A stretch of 64,000 nucleotides of DNA from Diadema setosum (lineage: Eukaryota > Echinodermata > Echinoidea > Diadematoida > Diadematidae): assembly GCF_964275005.1 (NCBI RefSeq), contig NC_092706.1:30370781-30434780 (forward strand). The letters run 5' to 3'. Made by a program: the position numbers and the translations under genes. A model generated the notes under the pieces. That model saw nothing but the letters and a program-made list of their open reading frames with translations, had not been told where the DNA came from and did no database searches. Below, piece by piece: positions 18,106 through 31,793 of this stretch (the first letter of the stretch is position 1; each line of letters begins with the position of its first letter).

Positions 18106-18184
18106 ATGACGAGCCAAGCAAAGTTCTTTGTCACGTTCGTCGTCCTTGTCATCCAGCAGGCGACTTCACAAGCCATCGTTCCAA
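18106..18184 (+). CDS. Exon 1: signal peptide
   Basis: Encodes [20 protein letters not shown] followed by SQAIVP. There is a hydrophobic core [10 protein letters not shown] and a likely cleavage after Ser-Gln-Ala23. The exon ends with one leftover base (phase 1) at an unusual but valid donor GTTAGC. This start is chosen because it gives a signal peptide directly ahead of the Ig domain. Confidence 0.8.
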
Positions 18185-30100: not shown

Positions 30101-31793
30101 AGAAAAAAATTCTCAAGAGGGTCAATTGTAGCTGAATGAAATCGGGAAACAATATTTCAGGGTCATAATACCATGTAATCACTGTTCAAATGCTGCACGA
30201 GACTGTGTTTAATACAAAATACGAAATTTCTGCTGATGTAATGCGAAACAGAGACATATATTATACACGGTGTCGCACTGGAGGATACTATAGTTCACAG
30301 TAACTAACGGAAATCTCACGTGCAAGTCTTGTAGCTATCGATTCCTGCCGATGACACTATCGACGTTCTTTTCTTATTGAAATCTAGGAATGTGCATGCT
30401 GTAGATAAATCAAAATCTAGGAAGGTGCATACAGCAGATAGATTAATGAGAATTTTTTTTTTTTTTTTTTTAACCAGAGGTAAACGCTTCAGCGTGTGCA
30501 CCTATATGCAACAATGATCATCGATTATTGGTATAGTACGACCATTACGAAACCATTCCTTTCATAAAATTCCATTTATTATTCATACAAACGGTCATTT
30601 GCGTGAAGTTTATAATGTTCATCTTCATATTCAATCGATACGTCATGTAGGAACATTGGCGACTCCCATGGGCGTGGTCACGATCATTGTGAGTTCGTTG
30701 GTGCTCAAGCAGAGAATGAGAGTTTCACGCTGACCGCTAATGACTTCTTCTACGTCCCTACGGCCACGGGTAAGTATTGCTTTCAACACTTTCGACAGAA
30801 AATATTTCTAAGGCCAACACTTTCCGATCAGACTATCAAACGGGCATGTTGTGTCTTCATTGGTTGTTGTACTGCATGGTCCAAGTGCGGGAAACTCCGT
30901 TTGAACCAAAACGAGGTAGTGATTCTTGGGGAGTGAATCGTAATTGGTAATTGTCCTCTAAAACTTATATTGGAGCTGCAAGACATCGATGATTGGAAGA
31001 AAGTTTGCGTGTTGTCCGTAAATCATCGAAATTGGCAGTCTACGTCACTGTGGTTGTCGTTCTCATTTGATGTCGACATGACCAAGTTTCAAATCATCCG
31101 TTTTAGATGTAATGTATAGTCTTTATTCACTAAAGGTCCATCGATTTCCTGGAAATATCTATTGTCTTGATAACACTGTGTGGTTATCACTTTAATATAG
31201 TTCCGTAGATTCCCCTAGAATGACAAGTCAATCACTGGGTAACTATCTTCCAATCACGACTACTAAATGATATACATGTAGTATATCACCTACTTTTCAC
31301 TGATTTATTGCTTTCATTTCACTTGTCCCCCCCCCCCCCCCCGAATAATAACTTTACATAGATATGCACTTTCTCTTGAAATCACTCATAATTGCACAAA
31401 TCGATTTCCTTCAAAACACACACACACACACACACGTTTCAGTAATGGTATCGACATGATAAATATAGAGTTGGATAATTGAAAGATCACATTTGTACCC
31501 TTCACAAAGTTAACGAAAACAATACATCACATGCTGCAGAATGAACTTTGAATATTACACCTTGATTCTTTCTGCTCTGGAATTAATGGTGAATGTTTGC
31601 GACTGCTGAACAGAGTATAATGTATATTCCAAGTCTTCCCAGTAATTCAAACCATTTCTTCTCTTTTTCTTCAGGCTATTATCGAGATACTTGGGGGAGC
31701 AATGTTACTGTTGGGACTATAGGGGGCGGCATCAGACATTGGACAGGCAGGACTATGGTTGGATGGTACGACTGTGGAGTACCAATACCTTGA
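18106..31793 (+). CDS. Secreted multi-domain serine protease: SP - Ig - trypsin - coiled coil - two C-terminal modules
   Basis: Fifteen coding exons: 18106-18184, 21179-21314, 21653-21825, 22452-22651, 22896-23061, 23867-23991, 24442-24588, 25074-25218, 25993-26139, 26573-26821, 27686-27984, 28998-29277, 29861-30071, 30651-30769, 31675-31793. All have GT donors and AG acceptors, phases agree throughout, and the sum is 2595 nt (864 residues plus TGA). Order: signal peptide 1-23, Ig domain 28-118, trypsin domain about 132-390, coiled coil 391-439, Thr/Ser-rich then Cys-rich linker 440-522, module X 523-715, module Y 716-864. No membrane segment after the signal peptide, so it is probably secreted. 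His183, Asp233 and Ser335 form a complete catalytic triad. I know no named gene with this order. A role in extracellular recognition or defence is inference. Exon borders are by eye; the acceptor of exon 5 and the donor of exon 1 (GTTAGC) are the least certain. Confidence 0.88.
20158..20322. repeat. 165-bp inverted repeat in intron 1
   Basis: The left arm GGGTTCAGGGAATGGGGAGG runs on through TATGAGAGAGGTAAGGA. The right arm TCCTCACCTCTCTCATACCC ends CCCATCCCCTGAACTC. Arms are about 75 bp and roughly 90 percent matched around a CACGGCTGTGATTAACTG-like loop. Probably a MITE. Confidence 0.8.
20486..20895. repeat. Inverted degenerate minisatellite (TTTGTCTAA / TTAGACGAA)
   Basis: The left half repeats TTTGTCTAA, TTGGTCTAA and variants about every 18-25 bp. 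Past about 20705 the same motif continues in the complementary sense (TTAGACGAA, TTAGACCAT). The two halves form a head-to-head degenerate array with no coding sense. Confidence 0.7.
21179..21825 (+). CDS. Exons 2-3: immunoglobulin domain
   Basis: Exons 21179-21314 and 21653-21825 encode residues 27-129. The Ig signature is clear: Cys47 in LLECRQ, Trp58 in VSWRKDG, and Asp93-x-Gly95-x-Tyr97-x-Cys99 in DRGLYTC, with strand spacing of a C2/I-set domain. The split arginine codon (CG|G) joins TYR to DGRVYM. The pair begins and ends at phase 1, so the domain is a symmetrical 1-1 unit. A short Pro/Ser linker ([13 protein letters not shown]) leads to the protease. Confidence 0.85.
21903..22076. mobile_element. 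MITE in intron 3 (GGGGGTGTTTCATCAA ends)
   Basis: Opens GGGGGTGTTTCATCAATTTA and closes with the complement GATGAAACACCCCC. TCAGCGCTGACAAGTTGTC is mirrored at both ends, and it carries GATTGGCTGAG inside, as MITE family 2 does. About 174 bp. Confidence 0.8.
22452..25218 (+). CDS. Exons 4-8: trypsin-type serine protease domain
   Basis: Five exons encode residues 130-390. The activation segment [13 protein letters not shown] has its cut after Lys140, giving the usual VVGG N-terminus. Catalytic residues: His183 in VVTAAHC, Asp233 in DSDIALIKL, Ser335 in GDSGGPF. Asp329, six residues before Ser335, marks trypsin-like cleavage after Lys/Arg. Other family marks are [16 protein letters not shown] and PGVYTRV. 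All key residues are present, so it should be active. The unit starts and ends at phase 1. The intron between exons 5 and 6 contains two adjacent MITEs. Acceptor of exon 4 (CAG before TTCAGTGTGGG) is chosen because it alone keeps phase with exon 3. Confidence 0.92.
23289..23460. mobile_element. MITE family 1, copy B (intron 5)
   Basis: Opens GGGGTGTTTCATTAAGCTG and closes AGCTTTATGAAACAGGGCCC. It is nearly identical to the copy at 9829-10000 and is directly followed by MITE family 2, as there. Confidence 0.88.
23459..23598. mobile_element. MITE family 2, copy B (intron 5)
   Basis: Opens GGGGGCATTTCATGAAGCG and closes GCTTCATGAAATACCCC. It is the same family and orientation as 10061-10205, abutting family 1 without a spacer. 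Confidence 0.85.
25993..26139 (+). CDS. Exon 9: coiled-coil stalk
   Basis: Encodes residues 391-439. The stretch [18 protein letters not shown] continues through [14 protein letters not shown] and has hydrophobic residues in a 3-4 heptad pattern (Ile, Leu, Leu, Ile, Leu), with charged positions between. About four to five heptads, enough for a dimer or trimer. A single phase 1-1 exon carries the whole segment, set directly after the protease domain. Confidence 0.8.
26573..26821 (+). CDS. Exon 10: Thr/Ser/Pro-rich linker and Cys-rich knot
   Basis: Encodes residues 440-522. The first part is mucin-like ([20 protein letters not shown]), probably O-glycosylated. The second part has six cysteines spaced C-x4-C-x8-C-x4-C-x-C-x9-C, beginning [10 protein letters not shown]. 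It resembles a small EGF-like or knottin module, but no family is certain. The exon starts and ends at phase 1, the donor being GTGAGT at 26822. Confidence 0.75.
26960..27385. repeat. GACGTCTCCG-rich element in intron 10
   Basis: A short motif (GAGACGTCTCCG, GGTCTCC, GAGACC and complements) recurs more than ten times in about 420 bp, giving extensive self-complementarity and high CpG content compared with its surroundings. It starts near GGCCTATCTCACTGGAGGAG. No coding potential is supported. Probably a dispersed TIR element. Confidence 0.6.
27686..29277 (+). CDS. Exons 11-12: module X (unassigned)
   Basis: Exons 27686-27984 and 28998-29277 encode residues 523-715. Landmarks: [10 protein letters not shown], a Cys pair (ACH..FACKG), [29 protein letters not shown] joined in phase to [15 protein letters not shown], then AFGYG-like [11 protein letters not shown] and [14 protein letters not shown]. 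The pattern 'VYEG ... L.L.SYEPV.W ... ERVIL ... GYG ... F.G.Y.A' looks like a defined beta-rich domain. I have a weak memory of similar bacterial secreted proteins but cannot name a family. The alternative acceptor at 29020 breaks phase, so 28998 is chosen. Confidence 0.75.
28386..28398. promoter_or_regulatory. Possible RFX X-box
   Basis: GTTGCCTAGCAAC in intron 11 fits the RFX consensus GTNRCC, spacer 0-3, RGYAAC. A single intronic match has little weight by itself. Confidence 0.25.
29861..31793 (+). CDS. Exons 13-15: module Y (unassigned) and stop
   Basis: Exons 29861-30071, 30651-30769 and 31675-31793 encode residues 716-864. Landmarks: [77 protein letters not shown] and a terminal WYDCGVPIP, then TGA. 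Five cysteines and many glycines suggest a compact extracellular fold, possibly ligand-binding. The C-terminus coincides with the end of the module. No family name can be given. No AATAAA was seen within several hundred bases downstream. Confidence 0.78.

Follow-up and report, generated by a model that had tools for sequence, protein, structure and literature searches.

A 64,000-nucleotide stretch of the genome of the echinoid Diadema setosum (contig NC_092706.1, positions 30,370,781 to 30,434,780; hereafter the window, to which the positions below refer) carries a gene that was rebuilt from the sequence as 15 exons on the + strand, from 18106 to 31793. As read from the DNA, a single open frame joins, in this order, a signal-like N-terminus, an Ig domain, an S1 protease, a coiled-coil-like stretch, a Ser/Thr-rich linker, a six-Cys segment and two C-terminal modules, referred to here as X and Y. 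We favour, with moderate confidence, a single secreted mosaic protease that is docked by its C-terminal head for local proteolysis. Module X is the stronger point of the analysis. Betaglycan and endoglin, TGF-beta co-receptors of medical importance, carry an orphan domain to which a single module of an animal protease and a bacterial family appear to be related. This link is the part that specialists would most want to pursue: it offers a way into the origin of the ligand-binding fold of endoglin and betaglycan, and the bacterial family supplies a simple model protein for that fold.

Module X and its bacterial relatives

Module X had no match in Pfam at E≤10 and a single chance match in NCBIfam (0.16). 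Used alone as a single-sequence scan of genome contigs, it gave no relative among 53 pattern matches, and none was obtained from plasmids or from viral contigs (six pattern matches in the latter). Relatives were recovered with a seed alignment consisting of the window X and four artificial rows, prompted by a suspected bacterial family with an SYEPV-W motif. The scan of bacterial genomes with this seed yielded 37 pattern matches, 26 of which were confirmed by tblastn with the window X (3e-10 to 3e-4, these E-values being relative to the candidates only). A profile of the 26 bacterial domains alone scored the window X at 58.2 bits (best of 1000 shuffles, 7.2), and gave a single match, at residues 561-690, when compared with the whole product. 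Because the loci had been picked for likeness to X, the score is biased upwards; even so, it exceeds the shuffles by a wide margin, and the alignment continues beyond the motifs used for seeding as far as SFTGTY at the end. On these profile scores, module X is homologous to the bacterial domain, which we designate SYEPVxW.

By record title, the carriers of this domain include proteobacteria, cyanobacteria, Nitrospira and Verrucomicrobia. The domain lies no more than 32 residues from the C-terminus in 25 of the 26 frames (L019 being the exception, and L024 containing the first half only). A lipobox was recognised by a simple rule in 10 of the 26 frames, and a hydrophobic segment precedes the domain in all seven cyanobacterial ones. 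The carriers include lipoproteins (in one of which a PQQ-repeat match falls below threshold), single-pass proteins of cyanobacteria and a Cys-rich protein with STIG1 repeats. The bacterial domain looks like an extracytoplasmic module. The echinoid product differs from these proteins in its setting, the bacterial domain lying near the C-terminus of lipoproteins, single-pass membrane or Cys-rich proteins, and no protease family was found in the six of the 26 carrier proteins scanned with Pfam. No name for the SYEPVxW domain was found in Pfam, NCBIfam or PHROGs. Assignment of module X to a known domain of these collections was rejected, the 26 bacterial rows giving single-member matches only: one in PHROGs (0.034), one in Pfam (DUF3845, 0.044) and four in NCBIfam (0.014-0.08). 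Comparison with the PDB by sequence gave no match at E≤10 for residues 446-862, unrelated chains only for module X (E 1.1 and 1.7), and likewise unrelated chains only for its last 36 residues (haemoglobin at 0.065 and others).

A probable orphan-domain fold

A structural model was made for a bacterial relative of X and compared with the PDB by Foldseek. The betaglycan and endoglin orphan domains came far above the rest among the matches listed, and the module X family appears, from this model, to have their fold. Several results weigh against this assignment. The Foldseek scores are low (E-values of 0.0018-0.029, TM-scores of 0.41-0.53), and the fold comes from the model of the bacterial relative, not from X itself. 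The first sequence hints of betaglycan were weak (E 0.6 and 0.58), and a betaglycan profile of six subdomain sequences (three of the four chains found; 6mzn_A was dropped as near-identical to 9b9f_E) scored X at 6.7 bits, compared with 5.0 for the best of 2000 shuffles. In hhalign comparisons with betaglycan, the profile of X and the bacterial domains reached a probability of 63 and a score of 31.8 (bacteria alone, 74 and 34.0), with maxima of 18.8 for column shuffles (n=150) and 13.0 for the reversed profile; one of 100 block shuffles reached 31.8. When the motif was kept and the rest shuffled, the real score of 31.8 was reached in 19 of 200 cases, and deletion of the motif brought the profile score down to 13.6, inside the shuffled range (maximum 15.7, n=150). 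The sequence similarity between X and betaglycan is, by these controls, confined to one motif, beyond which it is not significant. Homology by sequence alone was set aside as insufficient, because motif-kept shuffles reach the score and the signal disappears without the motif, and the question was decided by the fold test.

Betaglycan (TGFBR3) and endoglin, as far as the available part of their published description goes, have two orphan subdomains, a ZP domain and a membrane anchor. The echinoid product, by contrast, has one X module without a tandem of OD1 and OD2, and joined to a protease; residues 7-25 are the only hydrophobic window in its whole length, and no ZP domain was among the eight families reported by the Pfam scan of the spliced product at E≤1. 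A growth-factor-directed protease, in which the orphan-domain module would bind a TGF-beta-family ligand or latent complex and the protease would trim or activate it, is nevertheless suggested by the rank of the betaglycan and endoglin domains among the PDB entries listed and by the binding of TGF-beta family ligands by orphan domains (PMC11865472, available part). We regard it as improbable: the same part of that source describes endoglin and betaglycan as binding ligands by different surfaces of the fold, there is one module here rather than two, and the fold is common to bacteria. No bacterial relative of the endoglin/betaglycan orphan domain was found in the literature searched, a weak negative, as the structural literature was covered in part.

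Module Y and relatives within the genome

Pfam identified TARSH_C (PF21731) at residues 723-862 of 862 (8.2e-37, 127.2 bits, cut-off 27), over all 127 profile positions. By this match, module Y is TARSH_C, the C-terminal domain of “target of Nesh-SH3” (ABI3BP). ABI3BP carries one or more FN3 domains ahead of TARSH_C. The echinoid product shares with it a complete TARSH_C at the C-terminus, but has a protease in front and no FN3 among its eight Pfam families. TARSH_C was not found in viral contigs (one pattern match).

Searches of the animal's own genome covered 912.7 Mb and work exon by exon, such that distant copies could be missed. TARSH_C was found in this gene only (two matches, in exons 13 and 14; all five candidates scored), module X as query found itself only (two matches; all three candidates scored), and the 64,000-nucleotide window contains no second copy of X or Y. 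The C-terminal head thus appears to be unique in the genome at this sensitivity. The Ig-protease half gave 87 matches (107 of 143 candidates scored), eight of which are exons of this gene. The best match outside the gene, among the candidates scored, had 38% identity (contig C2, 17110211-17111101). That contig has four long protease matches in the interval from 16.65 to 17.11 Mb.

Two of these four are long intronless S1 frames, at 1273-2475 (+) of locus L032 and 1120-2343 (-) of locus L035. In both, the protease is followed by what looks by eye like an Ig start, the reverse of the Ig-S1 order described here, so that the joining of Ig to S1 units may have happened on more than one occasion in this animal.

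Gene model and protease

The exons are listed in Table 1. All 14 introns are GT...AG with compatible phases, the sole stop is terminal (TGA) and the spliced product has 862 residues. Rebuilding confirmed in part what an earlier sequence-only reading of this stretch had observed: the 15 phase-matched exons agree in both borders and in phase, and the Ig domain does lie ahead of the protease, whereas the length of 864 residues was too high, as was, by two, the numbering of the trypsin-type triad, itself present. The two Cys-containing C-terminal modules of that reading become three pieces: the six-Cys segment, module X and module Y. Homology backs exons 2-8 and 11-15, but not exons 1, 9 and 10. 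Phase 1 is found at all six module-border introns (after exons 1, 3, 8, 9, 10 and 12) and at two of the eight intra-module introns; the chance of this border pattern, given the phases of the gene itself, is 0.009, a value to be taken as a guide only, as the borders were drawn with the domains known.

Table 1. Exons of the mosaic protease gene, with the part of the product that each encodes and the basis for its assignment.
Exon	Positions	Strand	Content	Basis
1	18106..18184	+	Start codon; hydrophobic signal-peptide-like N-terminus, residues 1-27	Read from sequence
2	21179..21314	+	Ig domain, first half; Cys47	Pfam
3	21653..21819	+	Ig domain, second half; Cys99	PF00047 at 34-101, 6.5e-6
4	22452..22651	+	S1 protease: Cys130, probable activation site K138-VVGG, catalytic His181	Sequence, Pfam
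5	22896..23061	+	S1 protease: catalytic Asp231	Sequence, Pfam
6	23867..23991	+	S1 protease: Cys251, probable partner of Cys130	Sequence, Pfam
7	24442..24588	+	S1 protease: Asp327 (S1 pocket, putative D189 equivalent), GDSGGP, catalytic Ser333	Sequence, Pfam
8	25074..25218	+	S1 protease end; Cys387	Sequence, Pfam
9	25993..26139	+	Coiled-coil-like stretch, residues 389-438	Coding bias, register shuffles; no homology support
10	26573..26821	+	Coiled-coil end, Cys445, Ser/Thr/Pro-rich linker, six-Cys segment 488-519 (EGF-like C-x-C)	Sequence
11	27686..27984	+	Module X, part 1; SSYEPVRW motif	43.5 bits alone against bacterial profile; fold via relative
12	28998..29277	+	Module X, part 2; SFTGTY motif	10.6 bits alone against bacterial profile
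13	29861..30071	+	TARSH_C, part 1	Pfam, own-genome search
14	30651..30769	+	TARSH_C, part 2	Pfam, own-genome search
15	31675..31793	+	TARSH_C, part 3; stop codon	Sequence, Pfam

The Ig match is above the cut-off of its model, and three further Ig models matched below theirs. The Trypsin family (PF00089) covers residues 139-376 (3.1e-66, 223.8 bits, cut-off 20.6). The triad of peptidase family S1 is complete, with H181, D231 and S333 in TAAHC, D-IAL and GDSGGP contexts, and K138 followed by VVGG provides the cleavable R/K-[IV]VGG N-terminus. Together with Asp327 in the S1 pocket position, the numbering of which is by analogy, these features predict an active enzyme that cleaves after Arg or Lys. 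Cys130 and Cys251 probably occupy the positions of the usual S1-zymogen tie between the N-terminal part and the catalytic domain, and the Ig domain should consequently stay attached after activation. The top-scoring solved relatives of the protease belong to the thrombin/factor X group (thrombin, 9e-57; best 60 of 564 matches), from which the product differs by the Ig domain in front and by the lack of Gla or kringle among the Pfam families reported.

Coiled coil and linkage of the enzyme to the head

The stretch behind the protease that had been read as a coiled coil was located there, but is modest when compared with shuffles: eight of 2000 shuffles did as well as its best 42-residue register, and 148 of 2000 as well as its best 28-residue register. 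It is followed by a Ser/Thr/Pro-rich stretch and the six-Cys segment, C-x4-C-x8-C-x4-C-x-C-x9-C, which is EGF-like in look and has no Pfam match at E≤10. Once the usual S1 and Ig pairs are assigned among the first twelve Cys, Cys387 and Cys445 are left as probably unpaired residues on either side of the coiled coil, where bonds between chains would hold an oligomer together. With 25 Cys in the product, five of them within TARSH_C, other pairings are possible, and it is not certain that Cys387 and Cys445 serve as the inter-chain residues, a first point against the reading that we favour. A second concerns exons 9 and 10, which link the enzyme to the head and are supported by open frames, good splice sites and a weak coding bias. 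The annotated frame is weakly preferred by this bias (exon 9, 0.108 bits per codon; exon 10, 0.104; other frames, -0.22 and -0.20 for exon 9, -0.09 and 0.02 for exon 10), and the exon 9 score was equalled by 33 of 1000 open intron stretches of equal length. The measure is blunt: the homology-backed exons 4, 11 and 15 scored below 0 in their own frame, with exon 15 scoring higher in another.

The 15 exons might belong to two genes, one for an Ig-protease (exons 1-8) and another, beginning at exon 9 or 10 and running to exon 15, for the coiled coil, orphan domain and TARSH_C. We consider this unlikely. It would accommodate the lack of homology support and the weak coding bias of exons 9 and 10, the Met early in exon 9 (residue 394) and the S1 domains that adjoin an Ig-like start (by eye) elsewhere in the genome. 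However, the phase-1 donor of exon 8 fits exon 9, with no in-frame stop, and a gene beginning at exon 9 would have no signal peptide, yet TARSH_C and the six-Cys segment are of extracellular types.

Possible function of the mosaic protease

A single mosaic protease docked by its head, the reading that we favour, would be made as a secreted zymogen. Cleavage after Lys138 would free VVGG and turn the enzyme on, for cutting after Arg or Lys, and the Ig arm would be kept on the activated enzyme by the Cys130-Cys251 bond. The coiled coil, flanked by Cys387 and Cys445, would give a covalent oligomer, and the flexible linker would bear the orphan-domain and TARSH_C head, docking the enzyme on extracellular matrix or on a matrix-bound protein ligand. 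Rather than digesting freely, it would act as a local protease at the docking site, either remodelling matrix or releasing or activating a factor bound there. As orphan domains bind TGF-beta family ligands and ABI3BP is a matrix protein, analogy favours, without proving, matrix or growth-factor biology over microbe recognition. Docking of this kind is made less secure by what is said of ABI3BP, an extracellular matrix protein whose function is described as “largely unknown” (PMC6426741, available part); moreover, ligand binding is not implied by the fold, since bacteria share it.

Mosaic S1 proteases are already known as a kind, and self-contained recognition proteases exist. Factor C of the horseshoe crab, as described in the available part of PMC9525263, has lipopolysaccharide-binding modules (Cys-rich, EGF-like and sushi) ahead of a C-terminal protease. 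It resembles the echinoid product in being a secreted single chain that combines a protease zymogen with binding modules, but differs from it, on the same partial account, in that the protease here lies near the N-terminus and the modules are of other kinds. The sequence-only reading, in which known systems keep protease and recognition protein separate, was too sharp in this respect. The full order found here (protease near the N-terminus, coiled coil, orphan-domain-type module, TARSH_C) was not encountered in the literature searched.

In MASP, C1r and C1s, the S1 domain is preceded by CUB-EGF-CUB-CCP-CCP. The likeness to these proteins lies in the idea of an oligomer-linked S1 zymogen; the product differs in having an Ig domain before S1 and neither CUB nor sushi among its eight Pfam families. 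The earlier interpretation, a self-contained recognition protease, is partly supported, as the intact protease, a possible stalk and binding-type C-terminal modules do share one frame; recognition in the complement sense finds no such support. An immune recognition protease would have a head that recognises microbes and an oligomer that brings zymogens together for mutual activation, as in MASP/collectin or Factor C. The activation-site sequence, the possible oligomer and the C-terminal head in one frame are consistent with it, and Factor C, as far as the source cited above is available, offers a precedent for lipopolysaccharide binding and protease in one chain. We nevertheless judge it a poor candidate, given that no lectin, collectin, ficolin, sushi, CUB, collagen or fibrinogen-like domain was among the eight families, that the presence of TARSH_C and of an orphan-domain fold suggests a matrix or protein ligand, and that no link to microbes emerged from the tests run here.

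The docked mosaic protease can be extended to a broader conjecture, the most doubtful of those considered here: the endoglin/betaglycan fold would be an old extracytoplasmic binding module common to bacteria, used in this animal as the bacteria-like targeting head of an oligomeric trypsin-like zymogen acting on matrix-held TGF-beta-type ligands, and a soluble protease, rather than a co-receptor, would represent its early animal use.

Other features of the window

Frames at about 4320-4450 read X, corresponding to N in the sequence, perhaps an assembly gap. A 293-residue Pro-rich frame at 58253-59134 (-) had no Pfam match at 0.001; one stretch of it presumably resembles MCRS1. A 265-residue frame at 47175-47972 (+), also with no Pfam match at 0.001, resembles by eye the end of a non-LTR (long terminal repeat) retrotransposon polymerase. 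Finally, an LTR-type retroelement occupies 37530-42618 (-). Its 1090-residue frame (38839-42111) has SCAN-like and integrase matches and no reverse transcriptase match, and the frames at 37530-37771 and 42377-42618 have identical listed starts and are probably its long terminal repeats.

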